Source of the DNA: Lachnospiraceae bacterium AC2012
GTDB taxonomy: Bacteria; Bacillota; Clostridia; Lachnospirales; Lachnospiraceae
Assembly (NCBI GenBank): GCA_000702525.1
Contig: JNIN01000001.1
Span: 434,001-498,000 of the forward strand
Direction: 5' to 3'
DNA length: 64,000 nt
The notes under the pieces were generated by a model. It was given only the letters and a program-made list of their open reading frames with translations. It made no database searches and had not been told where the DNA came from. How positions within the stretch are numbered: the stretch's first letter is position 1; every line of letters begins with the position of its first letter. Of this stretch, positions 34,520 to 59,988 are shown piece after piece. A program made the position numbers and the translations under genes.

Positions 34520-35101
34520 ATGAACAGAAAAGAGATGGCTTCCGTTATAGAAGGAATTCTATTTGCAATGGGAGATTCTGTAGAAATTTCAAAAATTGCG
34601 AAGGCGTTAGAAGCAGATCAGGGTGTCGTAGAATCCATTTGCGATGAGCTTGCTGAGAAATACAAGAAGGAAAAACGTGGTGTGCGTATCGTCAAGCTGG
34701 ATAGTAGTTATCAAATGTGTACGAGCGTAGATGTATATGAGTATTTGATTAAGCTGGCGAAACAGCCGAAAAAATATGCATTGACAGATGTTTTGATGGA
34801 AACGTTGTCGATTATTGCCTATAAGCAGCCGATTACGAAAGCGGAGATTGAGAAGATTCGTGGCGTGTCTTCGGATCATGCAGTAAGTAAGCTTGTAGAA
34901 TTTGGCTTGGCACAGGAACTTGGACGTTTGGATGCACCGGGACGTCCGATGTTGTTTGGTACAACGGAAGATTTCCTGCGTTCTTTTGGAATTGCGTCCA
35001 TTACGGATTTGCCTTCCTTAAATCCAATGCAGGTAGAAGAATTTAAGATGCAGGCAGAAGCTGAGGCCGAAAATGTTTTAGCGGAAAATATTGAAATATA
35101 G
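34520..35101 (+). CDS. scpB: segregation and condensation protein B
   Basis: Tandem winged-helix partner of ScpA in the SMC complex. 193 residues: VIEGILFAMGDSVEISKIAKAL, ALTDVLMETLSIIAYKQPITKAEIEKIRGV and APGRPMLFGTTEDFLRSFGI are the family core. Ends with a short acidic tail. A strong terminator follows. Confidence 0.95.
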   Translation: MNRKEMASVIEGILFAMGDSVEISKIAKALEADQGVVESICDELAEKYKKEKRGVRIVKLDSSYQMCTSVDVYEYLIKLAKQPKKYALTDVLMETLSIIAYKQPITKAEIEKIRGVSSDHAVSKLVEFGLAQELGRLDAPGRPMLFGTTEDFLRSFGIASITDLPSLNPMQVEEFKMQAEAEAENVLAENIEI

Positions 35102-35107
35102 TGATGG

Positions 35108-35145
35108 AATAGTCCTCCTTGTTAATATACAAGGAGGACTATTTT
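35108..35145 (+). terminator. terminator after scpB
   Basis: A 15-bp perfect stem: 35108-35122 with 35129-35143 (core AGTCCTCCTTGT), 6-nt loop, followed by TTTTA. It separates scpB from the decarboxylase operon. Confidence 0.9.
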
Positions 35146-46234: not shown

Positions 46235-46318
46235 GTTTGCGCGCCATGGGCGCGCTCTAACGGGTGAAAGTCCCGAACACGCCCAGATAGTGGGAAGTGT
46301 ATAGCTGAACAGCAAGAC
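46235..46318 (+). mobile_element. group II intron 5' fragment (84 nt)
   Basis: Identical, base for base, to 51850-51933, the first 84 nt of the longer intron downstream. It contains the domain I start GCGCGCCATGGGCGCGC stem and CGGGTGAAAGTCCCG. Identity begins precisely at GTTTGCGCG and stops after AGCAAGAC, beyond which the sequences are unrelated, so only the 5' tip of an intron remains. No matching domain V or VI is found between here and 51.8 kb. Confidence 0.85.
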
Positions 46319-46374
46319 CTGCTAAGAGTTGTCAAGTGATAAATATGAAATTTAGTATATTTGATTTTAGAGCA

Positions 46375-46749
46375 CTACTTCTGGTATGAACGTTCAAGTG
46401 ACTTAATTGTTTTTGTGGTTATACAGTCTTTGTGCCAATAATCTTTGATAAAGTCAATCCATTTTTGGTGACCATCTTTGCGTGGTGTTTTGCCAAACAA
46501 TCCATCAATACCAGGAAATGTTTGATCTGATAAAGCTATGAGATTATTTGTCAAAGCTACTTTAAGTTTGGTGTACTGCGTGAACTGACGGTTGTAGATT
46601 TTAAGAGCCTGACGTAATTCTTCTTCTGGTATATATTCAGGTAAATCAAGCGAATTGTTAAATTCCATTTTATCCGGTGCAGATAGCACATACACGAAAA
46701 GTTCGGTATCATCTGATGCATGTGGTGGATCTTCAGCAAATTTAAACAC
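46375..46749 (-). pseudogene. IS110-family transposase fragment
   Basis: A 124-codon minus-strand open frame resembling the N-terminal half of IS110-type (DEDD) transposases: EYIPEEELRQALKIYNRQF, YTKLKVALTNNLIALSDQTF and PGIDGLFGKTPRKDGHQKW match the region between the RuvC-like catalytic part and the Transposase_20 domain. Full-length proteins have about 400 residues, so both ends are missing. The frame stays open upstream to 46785 but loses similarity near 46.70 kb, where it meets a hydrolase remnant on the other strand. Assigned from remembered family patterns. Confidence 0.65.
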
Positions 46750-46762
46750 TAGTTCCCTTGCT

Positions 46763-47239
46763 TCAACCGCCGTTAGCTTTGCTTATTTGACGAAAGATGA
46801 AGCCGTTGGAAACAATGGAACAGATGCATATATCGCAGCACATGATGCCTGTTTTCCTGGCGATACTTATTATCAGTCTTGTGATCGATGCGTGGCAACT
46901 GCTATTGTATCAAGTGGCGTCGATACAACATATATAAAAGGCTCTACATCTGGGCAATACAAATATCTGACAAAATCTGATCAATGGGAAGAAGTTTCAT
47001 GGTCAGGAACAGTAGATGATTTGCAACCAGGCGATGTTTTAATCATCCAAGGGTCAGAACGAGAAAATTCAGAGCATGGACACACAGTTTTGTATGTCGG
47101 AAACGAAACTGTAAAATCAGTATATTCTGATGCAGATGACAGTAAATGTTTCGTTGAAGCATCTTACGGTGATTATTCTCCATACTGTTCATCATGGCGA
47201 GCTGAATTTACAAATTATCACGTATTTCGTCATAAATAA
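46763..47239 (+). pseudogene. C-terminal remnant of a conjugative-element cell-wall hydrolase
   Basis: About 158 codons ending in a normal stop, resembling the C-terminal peptidase-like domain of hydrolases carried by Gram-positive integrative conjugative elements: STAVSFAYLTKDEAVGNNGT, YYQSCDRCVATAI (candidate Cys), QWEEVSWSGTVDDLQPGDV and HGHTVLYVGNE (candidate His). The frame can be extended upstream to 46655 only by reading antisense through the IS110 fragment, so the N-terminal membrane and lysozyme-like parts are gone. Such enzymes open the wall for conjugation. No signal peptide remains. Confidence 0.65.
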
Positions 47240-47257
47240 AAAAAATACATATAATTT

Positions 47258-47297
47258 TATAGCACCGCTTTACAATATGATAAAGTGGTGCTATACT
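47258..47297 (+). promoter_or_regulatory. promoter embedded in a 38-bp palindrome
   Basis: Promoter TTTACA (47269-47274), 17-bp spacer, TATACT (47292-47297). It is overlaid by an inverted repeat with a 15-bp stem, 47258-47272 with 47281-47295 (outer arms TATAGCACC/GGTGCTATA, one G-T pair) and 8-nt loop. The stem covers half of the -35 and most of the -10. No T run follows, so an operator is more likely than a terminator for the + strand. Confidence 0.7.
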
Positions 47298-47330
47298 ATA
47301 TGTAGTTTATAAGAAAGGAGCCGTGTTAGT

Positions 47331-47519
47331 ATGAAGCAAGAATGGATATCGTTAAATCTACGATTGACGAAAGATCTAAATTCTGCTTGTAAGGAACAGC
47401 AGATGAAACTGCAAAAGTCTACAGGTGAACATATCAGCAAAAACGAATTTATTCGCGAAGCCATTCGTGTTGCATTATGTCATCCTAATGAATTTTTCAA
47501 GGGAGGATCGAACACATGA
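47331..47519 (+). CDS. small ribbon-helix-helix DNA-binding protein
   Basis: 62 residues. The pattern WISLNLRLTKDLNSAC (beta strand then helix) followed by ISKNEFIREAIRVAL fits the Arc/MetJ/CopG ribbon-helix-helix fold, used by small repressors of plasmids, conjugative elements and antitoxins. A GAAAGGAG site lies about 12 nt before the ATG. Its stop overlaps the next ATG by 4 nt, so it leads a small operon. It is the natural candidate to bind the palindrome over its own promoter. Fold and role are inferred from pattern only. Confidence 0.65.
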   Translation: MKQEWISLNLRLTKDLNSACKEQQMKLQKSTGEHISKNEFIREAIRVALCHPNEFFKGGSNT

Positions 47520-48121
47520 AGATCGACACAAAGCCAGAACTAGAGCCGAAGATTGTAAAAATTCCGGTGATTACAGTAGCTCTTATTATTTTGTGTCTCA
47601 TCATATGTATTTTATTCACACAGAATAATTTAGCAGCGAAAGCAAGTTCACAATCGAAGTTGGCAAAATTGCAAGAAAGAAATGAAGAACTGTCTAACAA
47701 ATTGGATGAACTACAAAGTGGCTCAGAGACAGATACATCATCTGAAACAACAGATGTTGATAGTGTGAGCAGTACATCTGACACTATGAATACCTATCTT
47801 GACAATTTATTCAACACAATCATTGCAGAAGAAAATGATAATGCATCTGTAGACGATGTGCAGGCAGCCTATGCAAATCCAAACCAGAACTATTCTTTAT
47901 GGGAGCTATATGCAGGCAACGCGATTACAGAATTCAAGGTATTATCTACAACACGTTCGTATGATTCCGAGATTCCCGTGATGTTATGTGGCTATAATAG
48001 TAATGGTGAAGCTTTGATTTACATTTTTGCAACCTACAATGTAACTGGTAATTACTTACAAGACGCATCATTTGAAGTAACTACTGCAGGTAATGAAGCA
48101 TCAAATCAGCTACATGATTAG
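47516..48121 (+). CDS. membrane-anchored protein of unknown function A
   Basis: 201 residues. Short cytoplasmic N-terminus, a single membrane helix at about 17-37 (VITVALIILCLIICILF), a predicted coiled coil (SKLAKLQERNEELSNKLDEL), a Ser/Thr/Asp linker, then an outer alpha/beta domain of about 120 residues ending in SEIPVMLCGYNSNGEALIYI-type strands. The layout resembles VirB8/TcpC-like conjugation proteins, but no family is recognised. Starts on the overlapping ATGA of the ribbon-helix-helix gene. Probably part of the former mobile element. Confidence 0.6.
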   Translation: MKIDTKPELEPKIVKIPVITVALIILCLIICILFTQNNLAAKASSQSKLAKLQERNEELSNKLDELQSGSETDTSSETTDVDSVSSTSDTMNTYLDNLFNTIIAEENDNASVDDVQAAYANPNQNYSLWELYAGNAITEFKVLSTTRSYDSEIPVMLCGYNSNGEALIYIFATYNVTGNYLQDASFEVTTAGNEASNQLHD

Positions 48122-48140
48122 GCAGAAAGGAGACAGACAC

Positions 48141-48824
48141 ATGATTACAATTAAAGATCAGCCGTACAAAATTCGTCCAAGTGTCGGTGCAAATGTAAAG
48201 GCAATCGCTGGCGTATTTGGCGTGTTCGTGCTTGCAATGGGTATGTCCTTTTTGCTTACACGATTTGATGCAGCTGCAGACATTACGAAATTAACTGCGG
48301 ACAATAAGAACTTAGAGGAACAGATAGACGGTATCGTATCTGACACAAGCTCTACAGCAACTTCTGAGAGCACAACGAGTACGCTGGGTTATGATTTAAA
48401 TCGAGTCAATACGGATACAACAAATTTTCAATCATTTGTTTCTACCTATTTCGATTTCGACGATGCAGAATCAAATGAGAGCGCAACAGAAAGTGCGCGT
48501 AGTTATTTTGCAGATGAAAACGATGCTGTGTTTGAAGACGGTGGTTTGATTGGTAGTTTAGCAAGCAATACCGGGTCTGATGGCACAGTATATGATGAAT
48601 TATCAGCATATGATTTATCTATATCTAGTAGCGCATGTGATGTGTATTTCATCCAGGCTTTAGATAACGGAAATTATCAATATGCAGCTCATGTGACAGT
48701 TGATGTTACCTTGAGTGGTTCATCTACCGCAGAAATCCCAGTCATGTTTTTCTACGAGATGACTGCTGATAATAAGATCACAAACCTAACAGCAGATGTA
48801 GCCACTGGATCTATGGCCGATTAG
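48141..48824 (+). CDS. membrane-anchored protein of unknown function B
   Basis: 227 residues from ATG 48141, behind AAAGGAGA. Same plan as the preceding gene product: basic N-terminus, membrane helix at about 19-40, short coiled coil (ADITKLTADNKNLEEQIDGI), Ser/Thr linker and an outer domain whose last strands read AHVTVDVTLSGSSTAEIPVM and FFYEMTADNK, close in pattern to EIPVM of protein A. The two are likely distant paralogues forming one complex; this is inference. It is 19 nt downstream of gene A. Confidence 0.6.
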   Translation: MITIKDQPYKIRPSVGANVKAIAGVFGVFVLAMGMSFLLTRFDAAADITKLTADNKNLEEQIDGIVSDTSSTATSESTTSTLGYDLNRVNTDTTNFQSFVSTYFDFDDAESNESATESARSYFADENDAVFEDGGLIGSLASNTGSDGTVYDELSAYDLSISSSACDVYFIQALDNGNYQYAAHVTVDVTLSGSSTAEIPVMFFYEMTADNKITNLTADVATGSMAD

Positions 48825-49047
48825 GTGAGATAGAAAGGATAGTAGAATGTTTAAGAAGAAAAACTGACTATCCGCATAGGCAATACAATAAAGAAAATAT
48901 GCAATGCAAAGGGCATTGAAACATAATCTCGGAAGTTAATCGCACAATTCAGGAGTTGTCGAAAAGAAAACTCAAGAGTTGTCCGAATCACAATCGTGTT
49001 ACTTCATCATTTTCGTAAGAAGACACAAAAGACTCCGAAAGGAGAAT
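48825..49047 (+). other. decayed interval with a six-codon gene stub
   Basis: After gene B an AAAGGATAG site precedes ATG 48847, but the frame stops after MFKKKN (TGA at 48865), looking like the start of a third operon gene cut short. The rest contains a repeated GAGTTGTC motif and no supported gene. A new ribosome-binding site AAAGGAG appears at 49038. Confidence 0.4.
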
Positions 49048-49296
49048 ATGGGTAGTGCTAATGAATCAGGTATGACACATGACGAGACCATTGCGGTAAT
49101 TCAAGAAGAGTTGCGCTGCTTTTACGTAGCAATTACAAGAGCTAGGAATCGTCTAGTGTTATTTGAACCAAAGGACGTTTTCACATTCGGATCATTCAAG
49201 AGAGCCGGTCGTACTCTATATATGGACGATAGTACAGTTATGGACTGTGTATCATTAAAACAACTCACTGCATCTGGTGAAGAGAAAGCTATATAA
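49048..49296 (+). pseudogene. UvrD/PcrA-type helicase C-terminal fragment
   Basis: 82-codon frame containing EELRCFYVAITRARNRLVLF, the highly recognisable motif VI of superfamily I helicases of the UvrD/PcrA/Rep or RecB-like group. No Walker A, Walker B or other helicase motif lies upstream, so the ATPase core is gone. An AAAGGAG site and ATG at 49048 precede it, so a short peptide could still be made. The frame is also open from 48979. Confidence 0.7.
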
Positions 49297-49668
49297 GGAT
49301 AGTCTGTATCTTCTGACAAAAAGCAGTGATTAATGTATAGTTGCGGATATACTATACATGTGAGGAGACGGTTTTTATAAATACAATTGACGATTGTATA
49401 AATTTTTAGTAGATGCTAAAATTTATGCAGAGCAAGGTTATCATATTTCCGAAAAGTATAAGAAACGATTATATAGCGCATTTACGTATAAATTGAGATC
49501 TGGCGTAACTATGGAACAACTTATACAGAGGATTCAGTTAGGCATTACTTTTTAGGAATTAAGCCCGCTTCTCATAGCGGGCTATTTCTATGCGATCGCA
49601 TAGGTTTGCTATCGCAAACAAGGTATATTTCAGATTTTTAATTTTGAAAAAAGAAAGGAAACGCGATT
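49297..49668 (+). other. gene-poor interval rich in inverted repeats
   Basis: Contains ATGTATAGT/ACTATACAT (49333-49341 with 49351-49359), ATACAAT/ATTGTAT (49381-49387 with 49393-49399), an open frame of 53 codons with no ATG start (49394-49555, containing EQGYHISEKYKKRLYSAFTY, not recognised, probably a gene tail), then three back-to-back stem-loops at 49562-49619: AGCCCGCT/AGCGGGCT, the 16-bp perfect palindrome CTATGCGATCGCATAG (49588-49603), and GTTTGC/GCAAAC (49604-49619). The first hairpin may terminate the upstream remnant. The remainder shows no gene. Confidence 0.5.
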
Positions 49669-50781
49669 ATGGAATTTTTAAAACAATTGAAGCATGGTGT
49701 AGCAAATATTACTACTATGCTTATTGAAAAATTTGGAAAGAAAAGATTGATGGTTGCTGGTACTGTGATTGCCGTATTATTAGTTGGTTCCGTAAGTTTT
49801 GCAGCTGTTGTAACTTCAGGGGAGCATAGTGCTTCTGACGCTGAAAAGGTGCAGAAAACAAGTACAGGTACAAGTGACGAATCCAATAAAGATTCTACAG
49901 AGGATACAGTCACTGTAGAAACTACAGAAGAAACAGAACCGGAAGTTGTAGTAGACGAAGACGGCTATACGTACACTGACGAAGAAAAGACAATGTACGC
50001 AACAACAACTGTGAATGTACGTCAGAAAGCAAATGGTGAAAGTGAAAAGCTTGGAAGCCTTTCTGCTGGCGACGAAGTTGCTGTAACTGGATATTGCAAT
50101 GAAACTGGATGGATTCGTATCACTTATAATGATGGCGCTGGTTATGTGTCACCAGATTATTTATCGGATGAAAAGCCGGAAGTAACTACTACTGCTACTT
50201 CTACTGGAAGTGGCTCTAGTTCAAAGTCATCTGGTTCTTCAAGTGGATCATCAGCGTCTACTACTGGTACTACATCTACATCAAGTGGCGCGTATTTTGA
50301 TTCATCAAAGGCTCGTGCCTTATTTGATAAAGTCAATGCTGATAGAACAAGTGGTGGAGCATCCTCTTTAAATTGGTCTGATAGTTTATATAATTTTGCT
50401 ATGCAGCGTTGCCAGGCAATTGTATCCGATTATAGTCATAACGGTGCAACATACGGTGAAAATATTTATAAATCCTATAGTAGTGATCCGAACGAATGGT
50501 ATACTGCATTTCGTAATTCATCTGGACATTATAATAACTATATGAGCACATCTTATAATGAAGGTGCTGTTGGCGCATATTATTGCAACGGTTGTTGGTA
50601 TATCTGTGAAGTATTCCATTTTGATCACAGCAGCCCAGACCTTGTAATTCATCGAATAACCACAACTAGTGGTATTGTTGTATGCGCTACTCAGGGTGGT
50701 GAATACTACTGTGAAGATGGCGGCACAGATGAAGCACATATGGCAGCTATCGAGGAAGCTAGACAACTCTATGGATATTAA
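49669..50781 (+). CDS. SH3-CAP domain surface protein
   Basis: 370 residues: cytoplasmic N-terminus, membrane helix or uncleaved signal at about 27-49, an acidic Thr/Glu stretch, one bacterial SH3 domain (about 110-166; TTVNVRQKANGESEKLGSL), a Ser/Gly/Thr linker, and a C-terminal CAP (SCP/PR-1) domain at about 212-330. CAP hallmark residues are present in SDYSHNGATYGENIYKSY and SGHYNNYM. The protein would sit on the outer surface, wall-associated through SH3. CAP proteins have varied functions, so none is assigned. It is the only intact large gene between 49 and 52 kb. Confidence 0.85.
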   Translation: MEFLKQLKHGVANITTMLIEKFGKKRLMVAGTVIAVLLVGSVSFAAVVTSGEHSASDAEKVQKTSTGTSDESNKDSTEDTVTVETTEETEPEVVVDEDGYTYTDEEKTMYATTTVNVRQKANGESEKLGSLSAGDEVAVTGYCNETGWIRITYNDGAGYVSPDYLSDEKPEVTTTATSTGSGSSSKSSGSSSGSSASTTGTTSTSSGAYFDSSKARALFDKVNADRTSGGASSLNWSDSLYNFAMQRCQAIVSDYSHNGATYGENIYKSYSSDPNEWYTAFRNSSGHYNNYMSTSYNEGAVGAYYCNGCWYICEVFHFDHSSPDLVIHRITTTSGIVVCATQGGEYYCEDGGTDEAHMAAIEEARQLYGY

Positions 50782-50783
50782 GA

Positions 50784-50978
50784 CAGATTATTCTTACAGG
50801 AGGAATTCCTTTTAGAGTTTCATTACCTCAGGCACCGGAGGCTATTAATGCGGATCTTATGACGACTGCAGAGATTCATACAAAATTACAGGAAGGCTTT
50901 GAGGATATTGAGGCTGGACGAGTACAGGATGCAAAGACCGCATTTGCAATCACCGGAAAATGCTATGGGGCAGTATAA
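50784..50978 (+). pseudogene. RelB/DinJ-type antitoxin C-terminal remnant
   Basis: Frame reading ILTGGIPFRVSLPQAP, ADLMTTAEIHTKLQEG and FEDIEAGRVQDAKTAF, the typical C-terminal half of RelB/DinJ antitoxins. There is no start codon; the fragment begins right at the stop of the CAP gene, so the DNA-binding ribbon-helix-helix half is missing. After TAF the frame enters toxin DNA out of frame and stops at 50976. The antitoxin end and toxin beginning have thus been deleted together. Confidence 0.75.
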
Positions 50979-51147
50979 CAGAATAGCTGATCGTGTACTT
51001 GAACTTGGCTTCTTCCCAGAGAAATTCAGACTGGTAGACTTTGAACCGGAACGCTCACAAGGGCTTAGACGAATGCTAGTAAATAATTACTCGGTATTTT
51101 ATGTATTCAAGGACGAGACTGTCACGGTAACTAAAGAAAAAATTTTG
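50941..51147 (+). pseudogene. RelE/ParE-family toxin remnant
   Basis: Open frame with LQSPENAMGQYNRIADRVLE, GFFPEKFRLVDFEPE and NYSVFYVFKDETVTV, the middle and end of a RelE/ParE superfamily toxin. The first about 25 residues are absent: the deletion joins antitoxin codons directly to LQSPENA. The normal C-terminal strand after VTVT is also lost, and the frame runs on into the next gene. Toxin activity is unlikely but cannot be excluded. Confidence 0.72.
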
Positions 51148-51460
51148 ATGGATAATTTTAATTTAGCTAAAATCGAAAAACATATCAAAAGGTATCAAGA
51201 ATTTTGTAAAAGATAAAGAAAAAGCAGACATGCTTTTTGACAGACTGGAAAGCAGTATTTCTAGAATCTTGAAATATTCATCAGTTAAGGTGGAATCTAA
51301 CGGAATAGATTTGCTAAAGGGTATGTACGATGATGAAACTTATCATCAGAAAATGGAAAAGGCCGTTGGTGAAAGAGAAAAAACGTTAGAAATTTGCAAA
51401 GAAATGGAAGATGAAGTTGCAATTATTATAAGGGAACTTTATCAAAATAGACATATTTAA
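51148..51460 (+). pseudogene. small hypothetical gene with probable frameshift
   Basis: Two adjoining frames read as one helical protein of about 103 residues if a single T is removed from the TTTT run at 51202-51205: MDNFNLAKIEKHIKRYQEF joins VKDKEKADMLFDRLESSISR and continues to the stop at 51460. As it stands, the first frame stops at 51214-51216. The product would be soluble, charged and mostly alpha-helical. No family is recognised. An internal ATG at 51230 could express only the second part. Confidence 0.45.
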
Positions 51461-51478
51461 ACTTTTATAAAAAAGTAG

Positions 51479-51516
51479 TTGACATATCTGGTGAATGGGA
51501 GTATTCTGACATACTC
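51479..51516 (+). promoter_or_regulatory. xre promoter with overlapping operator
   Basis: Consensus TTGACA (51479-51484), 17-bp spacer, TATTCT (51502-51507). GAGTAT (51499-51504) and ATACTC (51511-51516) form an inverted repeat across the -10, the usual operator layout for an autoregulated repressor. Confidence 0.7.
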
Positions 51517-51591
51517 ACTTGAGGTCAGAGCCCTCGAGGGAGATCCCGGGAAGGTGTAATTATTGTATGTTGTACTATTGGAGGTGTAAAT

Positions 51592-51849
51592 ATGGAATAC
51601 CCTATCATTGATATCCAAGCGGCAGGCCGACGGATTCGACAGCTTCGCATATCTAATCATTACAGTGTCGAAGATGTTTCGGGTTATATGGGCTTTGAAT
51701 CCGTACAGGCTGTTTACAAATGGTAGCGTGGGGAGAGTCTTCCTACTGTAGACAATCTGTATGCGCTTAGCAAATTATTTGGAACGACAATTGAATATAT
51801 CCTAGAAGGTGAAGAAGAGGGCGACGAACAGTCGTCCTCTTCTCATTTA
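51592..51849 (+). pseudogene. Xre-family repressor interrupted by an amber codon
   Basis: Behind GGAGGTG and ATG 51592 the frame encodes an HTH_3 (Cro/CI) domain: AAGRRIRQLRISNHYSVEDV, then YMGFESVQAVYKW, a TAG at 51724-51726, and in the same frame RGESLPTVDNLYALSKLFGT and TIEYILEGEEE. The family has Gln at the stop position (KWQRG), so a single CAG to TAG change explains it. The truncated 44-residue product lacks the end of the HTH fold. The frame runs without a stop into the intron at 51850, so the original 3' end was probably lost too. Confidence 0.85.
51813..51843 (+). terminator. stem-loop 5' of the group II intron
   Basis: 13-bp stem AGAAGAGGGCGAC (51813-51825) with GTCGTCCTCTTCT (51831-51843, one G-T pair), 5-nt loop. 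It lies 6 nt before the intron 5' end and would be the recognition hairpin for insertion. It overlaps xre codons, so it may be a terminator of the original gene. Confidence 0.65.
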
Positions 51850-53600
51850 GTTTGCGCGCCATGGGCGCGCTCTAACGGGTGAAAGTCCCGAACACGCCCA
51901 GATAGTGGGAAGTGTATAGCTGAACAGCAAGACAAGTCCATCGTGAGGTGGAATCTGAAGGAAGCTGTAAGCAAATCTCTGGTCCGACGGACAGAAATCA
52001 CATATAAGGCTAGGCTACGAGAGATAAGTTGGCTAATAACAACAAAGTCTAATAACTATCACATTTGTAGTAGCAGAGTAAATGTGGCGGATATATGGAG
52101 AGAAAGAGCGTGCACCTTAAGCGTGGAGGTCTCGCAGAGGCTTCATTAGCCTAGTAACAACGAACTGTGAGAAGTCATCCGAGCCCATAGTAGTGAAGAA
52201 GTTTCTGTAATGGAAATGGAGCGAAGGGGTGAACAATCAATAAGTTTGAGTATGTCTCGTGTTGCAGAAATGACAACATCTGCCGTAACCAATCGGGGCA
52301 AGGGTGGTCAAATCAAGCGAGGCGGAAAGGAAAGAACGCTAGTCTAATGGAGCAGATATTATCTAGCGATAATCTCAACAGAGCATATCTGCAAGTCGTA
52401 CGAAACAAAGGTGCAGAGGGAGTGGACGGAATGAAGTACACAGAACTGAAAGAACATCTTGAAAAGAACGGCGATATTATCAAGGAACAGTTGAGGACAA
52501 GAAAGTATAAACCTCAGCCAGTACGAAGAGTGGAGATACCAAAGCCTGATGGCGGTGTCAGAAACCTAGACCTAATAGATGTGCACAGCAAGCAATCCTA
52601 ACAGCACTCGATATGATGAATGATGGCAATGATTGGATTGTAGATATTGACTTGGAAAAGTTCTTTGACACAGTAAATCACGATAAACTTATGACCATCA
52701 TAGCTAGAACTATTAAAGATGGAGATGTTATTTCTATCGTTAGGAAATACCTAGTCAGTGGAATTATGATTGATGATGAGTACGAGGACTCTATTGTGGG
52801 AACACCACAAGGAGGAAATCTCTCGCCATTATTGGCGAATATCATGTTGAATGAACTTGACAAGGAGATGGAAAAGCGAGGACTTAACTTTGTAAGATAC
52901 GCAGATGATTGTATCATCATGGTTGGTAGTGAAATGTCTGCTAATAGAGTCATGAGAAATATCTCTCGATTCATTGAGGAGAAACTGGGTCTCAAGGTCA
53001 ACATGACCAAGAGTAAAGTGGACAAGCCGCAAGGACTTAAATACCTTGGATTTGGATTCTACTTTGACTCAAGAGCACATCAGTTTAAGGCAAAACCACA
53101 TGCGAAATCAGTAGCGAAATTTAAGAAGAGAATGAAAGAACTTACATGTCGTAGTTGGGGCGTCAGCAACAGCTATAAAGTGGAGAAACTTAATCAGCTC
53201 ATCAGAGGATGGATTAACTACTTCAAGATAGGAAGTATGAAAACTTTATGTAGGAAGATGGATAAATACATCCGATATAGACTCCGCATGTGCATTTGGA
53301 AACACTGGAAAACTCCACAGAATCGTGAAAAGAACCTTGTAAAACTTGGAATTGACAGAGACACTGCAAGACGAGTTGCATACACAGGTCATAGAATAGC
53401 CTATGTCTGCAACAAGGGAACGGTGAATGTGGCAATAAACAACAAGAGACTGGCCTCATTTGGATTAGTCTCAATGTTAGATTACTACACCAAAAGGTGT
53501 GTTACTTGTTAAGTTGATTGAACCGCCGTGTACCGAACGGTACGCACGGTGGTGTGAGAGGTCGGAATTTCTCGCTCATGAGAAATTCCTCCTACTCGAT
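51850..53600 (+). mobile_element. group II intron, reverse-transcriptase type
   Basis: A 1751-nt intron. The 5' end is set by the start of identity with the copy at 46235, giving GTTTG in place of the usual GTGYG. Domain I structure fills 51850-52346. Domain IV encodes the reverse transcriptase. Domain V is ACCGCCGTGTACC/GGTACGCACGGTGGT at about 53522-53553, and domain VI the GGAATTTCTC/GAGAAATTCC hairpin (53564-53590), ending CTACTCGAT at 53600. The maturase has no HNH endonuclease domain. Insertion 6 nt after a stem-loop fits introns that target terminator hairpins. The RT gene is damaged, so autonomous mobility is unlikely. Confidence 0.88.
52347..53512 (+). pseudogene. group II intron reverse transcriptase/maturase with internal deletion
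   Basis: LtrA-type protein in two frames. Frame one (52347-52601) has SSDNLNRAYLQVVRNKGAEG and PKPDGGVRNL, then stops. Frame two resumes at RPNRCAQQAILTALDMMNDG (from 52568) and runs to 53512 with DIDLEKFFDTVNHDKL, GTPQGGNLSPLLANI, the catalytic RYADDC, maturase motifs YLGFGFYF and RGWINYFKIG, and the usual C-terminus. By comparison with remembered family sequences about 33 residues between RNL and RPNR (RT1-RT2 region, normally containing IP...DR..QQA and YGF) are missing, with a frame change at the join. Functional protein is unlikely. Confidence 0.85.
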
Positions 53601-59926: not shown

Positions 59927-59949
59927 TGGCAGTTTCTGTATAAAATATG

Positions 59950-59988
59950 AAAAGGTCTTGGAAATGTTACATTTCCAAGACCTTTTTT
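59950..59988. terminator. bidirectional terminator between rnfB and apbE
   Basis: Perfect 17-bp stem, 59950-59966 with 59970-59986, loop TTA. A tail of A on one side and T on the other lets it serve both converging transcripts. Confidence 0.93.

Follow-up and report, generated by a model that had tools for sequence, protein, structure and literature searches.

The DNA analyzed here, a stretch of 64,000 nucleotides from Lachnospiraceae bacterium AC2012 (hereafter the window), carries a long palindrome in front of a gene for a 62-residue protein (ORF1), which is followed by two further genes (ORF2 and ORF3). An original prediction, made from the window alone, read this arrangement as a compact switch in which a putative ribbon-helix-helix (RHH) protein acts on a palindrome overlapping its own promoter and so regulates two membrane proteins. 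Does the palindrome serve as the operator of an autoregulated operon, or does it have another role? By our analysis, the locus is probably a switch of a familiar, self-limiting type that has been left behind in a mobile element now decayed. The features on which the argument is built are collected in Table 1.

Table 1. Features of the locus, with positions in the window
Feature	Position	Strand	Basis
Island between cheR terminator and exonuclease gene	46235..53600	.	Comparison with same-genus genomes
Group II intron 5' fragment, identical to 51850-51933	46235..46318	+	Sequence identity
Hydrolase C-terminal part, lysozyme domain missing	46754..47239	+	Similarity to pGKT2 "phage tail tip lysozyme"
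A8 tract	47238..47245	.	Sequence
Extended hairpin including outer 8-nt arms (47246-47253 / 47298-47305)	47246..47305	.	Folding
Inverted repeat, candidate operator	47258..47295	.	15-nt arms, 14/15 pairs, 8-nt loop
-35 element TTTACA, within palindrome	47269..47274	+	Consensus match
-10 element TATACT, TGC before, overlapping the palindrome's right end	47292..47297	+	Consensus match
ORF1, 62 aa, RHH-like small protein, candidate autorepressor	47331..47519	+	ORF list, sub-cut-off RHH_1 match
ORF2, 201 aa, one hydrophobic (TM-like) segment, first of conjugation-associated pair	47516..48121	+	Homology, hydropathy
ORF3, 227 aa, one hydrophobic (TM-like) segment, NTF2-type outer domain (model), likely VirB8-like	48141..48824	+	Homology, model
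Group II intron with reverse transcriptase gene not in one open frame	51850..53565	+	3' limit from blastn matches

The palindrome and its promoter

The arms of the palindrome (47258-47272 and 47281-47295) form the predicted 15-nt stem with 14 of 15 Watson-Crick pairs; the odd pair is a G opposite a T, so that all 15 pairs can form in plus-strand RNA. A scan of the window for arms with at least 14 of 15 pairs and loops of 3 to 12 nt returned eight overlapping matches at three places (35107-35144, 47258-47295, and 59949-59987), compared with a mean of 0.17 matches in 30 first-order Markov resamples of the window, which puts the palindrome far beyond the chance level. The place at 35107-35144 lies directly after an ORF that ends at 35101, pairs at 15 of 15 positions in its inner form (35108-35143), has AGGAGG in one arm, and by eye is probably a terminator. 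Together with the outer arms, the palindrome ahead of ORF1 makes a 60-nt hairpin that folds with -26.0 kcal/mol on the plus strand (z of -7.6) and -24.9 kcal/mol on the minus strand; 11 separate 60-nt plus-strand stretches of the window fold better. The adjoining A8 tract is either, on the minus strand, a terminator-like U8 that directly follows the hairpin or an AT-rich upstream part of the promoter.

The palindrome overlaps both promoter elements, as had been predicted, and covers the whole -35 element and four of the six bases of the -10 element. The two hexamers, 17 nt apart, match 10 of 12 consensus bases, and a TG upstream of the -10 makes this an extended promoter motif. Promoter-like sites as a class numbered 12 in the surrounding 3 kb, with 11.7 expected, and sites with at least 10 of 12 matches and the TG numbered four on both strands of the window, versus a mean of 1.6 in 20 resamples. 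On these counts the candidate promoter, identified by its consensus match, is plausible, not proven: its description as near-consensus is accurate for the motif, but the promoter taken alone exceeds chance only modestly. Since both the -10 element and the palindrome arm contain TATA, the two features are not independent. From the spacing, transcription is predicted to start at about 47304, beyond the inner palindrome, and the expected leader from there would be ~27 nt long, with AAAGGAG ahead of ORF1.

Among the genome matches listed, no other copy of the palindrome arm with 0 or 1 mismatch was present. Twelve other places in the genome match it with two mismatches, and the forward and reverse matches number 14 in all, versus 25 for the backward control; the lack of a closer listed copy, with two-mismatch places no more numerous than in the control, fits a local regulator. 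The palindrome pattern gave no exact match in genome contigs and viral contigs, a collection from which the window's own genome is possibly excluded. An Rfam RNA element at this place was considered and rejected, all 11 matches being below the gathering score.

ORF1 as a candidate RHH protein

ORF1 was matched by the Pfam RHH_1 model at residues 33 to 46 only (E of 0.041; 14.3 bits, with a cut-off of 20.5). When the model was searched against the whole genome, it gave two matches, both below the cut-off, of which ORF1 was the better (13.5 bits). ORF1 had no NCBIfam match, no PDB sequence match at an E value of 10 or below, and, for its AF2 single-sequence monomer model, no Foldseek match at an E value of 0.001 or below. 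The model has helices at residues 2 to 31, 37 to 50, and 52 to 55 and no strand. The ribbon strand of RHH proteins pairs only between two monomers, in the dimer; a monomer model is therefore a poor test of the fold, and the all-helical model counts only weakly against it. The prediction of a putative RHH protein thus keeps its profile match, but one below the cut-off and with no strand in the model, and the match weakly suggests that ORF1 is RHH-like.

As a yardstick we used Aux1 of plasmid pLS20, which is described as a predicted RHH protein with demonstrated binding to its oriT (PMC5675868). Aux1 was taken as L051:7894-8133, which together with the next gene spans the 865 bp published for aux1 and aux2. 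It scored 14.9 bits on RHH_1, versus 14.3 bits for ORF1, and also matched a NikA-like model (E of 7.5e-5). ORF1 and Aux1 themselves share no meaningful similarity (BLASTP E of 1.2).

Relatives of ORF1 were sought in 98 related genomes and in 397 genomes of the family, two samples that overlap; a single match was obtained in each, both to the window's own genome. ORF1 matched nothing in plasmids or phages, and searches of genome and viral contigs yielded no relative that could be confirmed. The combination of a palindrome, an RHH gene, and a membrane pair was thus found elsewhere only in part: relatives of the ORF2/ORF3 pair occur in one further genome of the family (G399) and on three plasmids, but neither the RHH-like gene nor this palindrome turned up anywhere else in the collections searched for each.

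A conjugation-associated pair downstream

ORF1, ORF2, and ORF3 are each preceded by a Shine-Dalgarno sequence (AAAGGAG for the 62 codons of ORF1), and the ORF2 start codon overlaps the ORF1 stop codon (ATGA). We set the ORF3 start after its Shine-Dalgarno sequence; the ORF list has it at 48093. Both downstream products have the membrane character predicted for them, with one hydrophobic segment near the start: 19-residue hydropathy exceeds 1.6 only for segments starting at residues 9 to 25 in ORF2 and 14 to 25 in ORF3.

Among the 397 family genomes, G399 alone has two abutting genes related to ORF2 and ORF3 (BLASTP E values of 6e-9 and 1e-15, respectively). The ORF2 search returned nine non-self matches, of which only that in G399 (L026), near full length at residues 12 to 196, was accepted; one match (L029) falls over a 413-aa ORF that has no such pair alongside, and the other seven, which are partial alignments, were dropped. 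A search with a two-row ORF3 alignment found 2 of the 397 genomes, AC2012 itself and G399. A profile search matched 7 of 392 genomes, and its five further matches, covering only the first 75 model positions, were discarded, as were five weak matches of one further search.

Used as queries, ORF2 and ORF3 themselves matched nothing among the plasmids or the viral contigs. With the ORF3-like protein of G399 as the query, 3 of 72,556 plasmid records were found, namely, a plasmid of Streptomyces sp. NBC_01454, Gordonia plasmid pGKT2, and Rhodococcus plasmid pGS01; the same protein matched two weak phage places only (E of 0.6) and nothing in viral contigs, and the ORF2-like protein of G399 had no match in plasmids. 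All three plasmids have the same gene order: a gene annotated as "phage tail tip lysozyme," an ORF2-like gene, an ORF3-like gene, and, two to five genes downstream of the pair, the gene for relaxase MobL. The pGKT2 relaxase matches the Pfam MobL model (E of 1.7e-55), and within the same 45 kb this plasmid has one gene for type IV conjugative DNA transfer and one for a topoisomerase. By hhalign, ORF3 and ORF2 match the profiles of their relatives with E values of 3e-11 and 1.3e-6, part of each score being driven by the G399 member present in both profiles; ORF3 alone matches the Streptomyces protein with an E value of 2e-7. In the plasmid records (L041, L042, and L043), the pair between the lysozyme gene and mobL is annotated merely as hypothetical proteins.

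The C-terminal half of the ORF3 structure model, a model of low confidence (pLDDT of 50.6), can be aligned with NTF2-like domains. The best three structural rows are TraM, the NTF2-like conjugation protein 3ub1 (which we take to be TcpC), and TraM of pIP501, and 7 of the first 24 rows are VirB8-like proteins of conjugation or type IV secretion systems (T4SS), with OrfG, TraH, and VirB8 among them. These VirB8-like rows have Z scores of 6.7 to 7.4, tied with unrelated NTF2 folds on this low-confidence model. A VirB8-like role of ORF3 is, by this model, likely. In the PDB, neither the ORF2 and ORF3 sequences nor their profiles had a significant match. A toxin-antitoxin operon was also considered and discarded, as no toxin model matched ORF2 or ORF3.

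Hydrolase gene and origin of the gene block

The gene fragment upstream of the palindrome is related to the lysozyme gene of the plasmids. Its alignment with the C-terminal region of the lysozyme from pGKT2 spans 153 columns at 39% identity (E of 3e-29), and it is similar to the pGS01 lysozyme as well (E of 5e-27); its match to the Streptomyces lysozyme is not significant. The Phage_lysozyme2 domain that precedes the matching part in pGKT2 is absent from the window hydrolase. G399 has a broken hydrolase remnant before its pair, recognizable in two pieces (E of 1e-4 and 0.03) with stops and shifts. No match to the window hydrolase was found in viral contigs or phages, and the search of 61 relatives yielded, besides the genome of the window itself, a single weak place, in G027 (E of 2.7e-4). 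Seven plasmid records contain a match, and in the two with mobL it covers at least 80% of the query. Two of the other five were read, Macrococcus armenti p19Msa0966 and Glutamicibacter pGnB68; the Macrococcus plasmid has a Trs/Tra region with the hydrolase, one unnamed gene, and TrsH. Profile comparison of ORF3 with a Macrococcus TrsH/TraH gave nothing, and kinship of the two was rejected, as was that of ORF2 with the gene before this TrsH/TraH.

The gaps between the hydrolase gene and the pair measure 194, 211, and 143 bp in the three plasmids, with no gene annotated there in a gene table that is incomplete. Only the Streptomyces gap has frames open for at least 45 codons (64 on the plus and 46 on the minus strand, starts unchecked), and G399 has no room for an ORF1-like gene between the hydrolase remnant and the pair. 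Inverted repeats lie 16 to 25 nt past the hydrolase stop codon in two of the three gaps: that of Streptomyces has 14-nt arms, 93% paired, and an 8-nt loop, and that of Gordonia has 9-nt arms followed by TTTT. No inverted repeat follows the hydrolase in the L043 gap or in the G399 stretch. A hairpin at this place, being present in two plasmids, need not be the operator of ORF1. Given the kinship of the hydrolase and the pair, their order in the plasmids, and the broken hydrolase of G399, the hydrolase-ORF2-ORF3 segment looks like an inherited block. The RHH-like gene and the palindrome look like an addition, as no gene is annotated in the plasmid gaps and G399 leaves no room for one; the inverted repeats in two of the plasmid gaps speak against this.

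A decayed mobile island

The locus lies in an island of 7.4 kb of decayed mobile pieces that is absent at this site in all three same-genus genomes. In G003 and G002 the exonuclease gene comes directly after cheR (tblastn; L030 2346-3473 and L032 2306-3490), and in G001 the matches to cheR and rnfC stand only about 100 bp apart. The 84-nt intron fragment forms the start of the island, just past the cheR terminator hairpin and 5.6 kb upstream of the intron itself. Fragment and intron bracket the conjugation relic. The island is a patchwork, with the truncated hydrolase, a C-terminal scrap of UvrD, a frame-broken intron reverse transcriptase, and a cut helix-turn-helix-like gene with a weak HTH_3 match (E of 0.084).

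Several other pieces were noticed in the island. A 124-aa ORF on the minus strand (46375-46749), with no Pfam match, is apparently a gene fragment and abuts the truncated hydrolase. An open CAP-domain gene with an SH3 domain occupies 49669-50781 and by eye encodes an N-terminal membrane segment. At 50820-51216 lies a weak ParE-like piece (E of 0.019, below the cut-off), split by frame breaks, which by eye comes after an apparent antitoxin gene end. A copy elsewhere in the genome was considered and rejected, the single match being one of 45 nt that falls in the intron part.

The operon, with all three of its ORFs still open, thus belongs to a mobile element in decay. This setting was missed by the original prediction, whose reading of the context is incomplete in that the membrane proteins are of a conjugation-associated kind.

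Proposed autoregulation and alternative explanations

ORF1 has a conjugation-associated setting, with the hydrolase part upstream and the ORF2/ORF3 pair downstream. In the mechanism we propose, the three ORFs would form a short operon that remains from the cell-wall portion of a conjugation machine of the Gram-positive type. Its second and third genes would encode single-pass VirB8-like proteins of the sort whose genes, in transfer regions related to this one, come after that of a peptidoglycan hydrolase, and ORF1 would be a small, RHH-like, dimeric DNA-binding protein. Its dimers would bind the 38- to 60-bp palindrome over the -35 and -10 elements of their own promoter and block RNA polymerase, so that, if the operon is still active, the pair would be held at a low, self-limited level. 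An autoregulated switch best fits the anatomy because the palindrome spans the promoter, the predicted start lies outside the inner palindrome, no other arm copy is listed, and RHH precedents exist. Against it stand the sub-cut-off RHH assignment, the all-helical model, and the rival reading of the hairpin as a terminator. One RHH dimer needs less DNA than this palindrome offers, and the length counts against a simple RHH-dimer operator. All considered, we give an autorepressor operon of the MobC (RA3) or ArtA (pSK41) type, controlling a stranded VirB8-like pair, a close to even chance of being right.

In the main rival explanation, which we regard as somewhat unlikely, the palindrome is an intercistronic hairpin that would terminate or insulate transcription downstream of the hydrolase gene, or serve minus-strand transcripts in this way; the promoter would simply overlap it, and ORF1 would not bind. 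The minus-strand hairpin runs directly into U8, although its stem has a 3-nt bulge, and the terminator scan listed the hairpin on neither strand. Nor is a gene apparent that a minus-strand terminator would serve, since the three minus-strand ORFs tested to the right have no Pfam match. For plus-strand transcripts, the imperfect pair would be tolerated as a G-U, and the distance from the hydrolase stop codon to the inner palindrome, 18 nt, is in line with that of the repeats in the two plasmid gaps; however, no U run follows on the plus strand, the sequence past the inner stem being CTATATGTAGTTTATAAG, and the inner palindrome lies outside the leader that the overlapping promoter would make. 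The state of the island raises a different doubt: with the whole setting decayed, the operon may be dead, its promoter, palindrome, and ORF1 nonworking and their appearance inherited or due to chance. The patchwork of truncated and frame-broken gene pieces around it is consistent with such a relic, as is the coding score of ORF1, which is 0.06 versus 0.44 for 17 housekeeping genes and is exceeded by a minus-strand frame (0.10). But all three ORFs are open and have ribosome sites, ORF1 and ORF2 are coupled, and the highest scores for ORF2 and ORF3 are those of their own frames (0.13 and 0.21, versus at most 0.01 in the others), and we consider a dead relic unlikely.

The kinship with MobL plasmids brings a further role into consideration, in which the palindrome would be an origin-of-transfer or relaxosome site and ORF1 an RHH-type auxiliary relaxosome protein like Aux1 and Aux2 of pLS20. 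The nearest annotated relatives of the pair sit on plasmids with MobL relaxase genes (the MobL model having been matched for pGKT2), genes for RHH-type Aux1 and/or Aux2 homologues are described upstream of almost 400 MOBL relaxase genes (PMC5675868), and the nick in pLS20 is reported where an inverted repeat begins (PMC5313138). However, no relaxase model was matched among the island proteins searched and none is apparent in the ORF list, mobL is downstream of the pair in the relatives with nothing RHH-like annotated beside the pair, and ORF1 does not resemble Aux1, the one of the two that was compared. We hold this role very unlikely as the main explanation; to judge by MobC, operator and relaxosome roles can coexist. 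Quite improbable, too, is a further reading, in which a promoter-operator-RHH cassette peculiar to this lineage entered a MobL-type conjugation cluster between the hydrolase gene and the VirB8-like pair, gave the pair a private, self-limited promoter, outlived the other parts of the element, and now drives two surface proteins for a host purpose, such as blocking incoming conjugation or phage.

Comparison with known systems

RHH autorepressors at the head of transfer operons are already known. MobC of the IncU plasmid RA3 is described as an RHH autorepressor of the mobC-nic operon, with an imperfect palindrome between the -35 and -10 elements (PMC4175270). Like MobC, which belongs to the RHH superfamily and represses its own promoter, ORF1 is the first gene of a transfer operon, its own part being that of a candidate. 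MobC, however, has 176 aa, lies by oriT, and heads a relaxase gene, whereas ORF1 has 62 aa and heads VirB8-like genes, and the operator arms are 8 nt for MobC and 15 nt for the ORF1 palindrome. ArtA of staphylococcal plasmid pSK41 is reported to be an RHH protein that binds pseudopalindromic DNA and has a target in each of the three tra promoters, its own among them (PMC6540685). The likeness is that of an RHH regulator of a Gram-positive conjugation region with its own promoter as a target, for which ORF1 is again a candidate. The differences are that ArtA is divergently transcribed and has six plasmid sites, while ORF1 has one palindrome and one operon, and that ArtA has a PDB entry (3GXQ; PMC6540685), while ORF1 matches no PDB chain. 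Aux1 and Aux2 resemble ORF1 in being small, predicted RHH proteins of a MobL-type system, and Aux1 is described as binding an inverted-repeat region (PMC5675868); unlike ORF1, which is not similar to Aux1, they are encoded between oriT and the relaxase gene, under a distant main promoter (PMC5675868).

For the pair, the VirB8-like proteins of Gram-positive T4SS, such as TraM and TraH of pIP501, TcpC, and OrfG, are described as a TM segment with an NTF2-like domain, and systems with two VirB8-like proteins plus a cell-wall hydrolase are on record (PMC11753425, PMC4840375). ORF2 and ORF3 each have one TM-like segment, and ORF3 may have the NTF2-like domain, but no sequence similarity to these proteins was seen, and the fold match comes from a low-confidence model, for ORF3 only. 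pGKT2, pGS01, and the Streptomyces sp. NBC_01454 plasmid have the hydrolase-ORF2-ORF3 order, with the pair homologous by profile and the hydrolase in two of the three; they differ in that no gene is annotated in the gap between hydrolase and pair. Literature searches in an open-licence library led to MobC, the Aux proteins of pLS20, reviews covering ArtA, and papers on VirB8, with no account among them of this gene pair or of the promoter-palindrome-RHH unit. If our reading is true, the locus draws attention to an unannotated, hydrolase-linked pair of conjugation proteins, found in plasmids of Actinomycetota and in two genomes of a single other family, and offers one testable promoter-palindrome-repressor unit. 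What is known of RHH autoregulation would be unchanged by it; compared with the systems above, it would add a case in which the regulated genes likely encode cell-wall channel proteins and not a relaxase.
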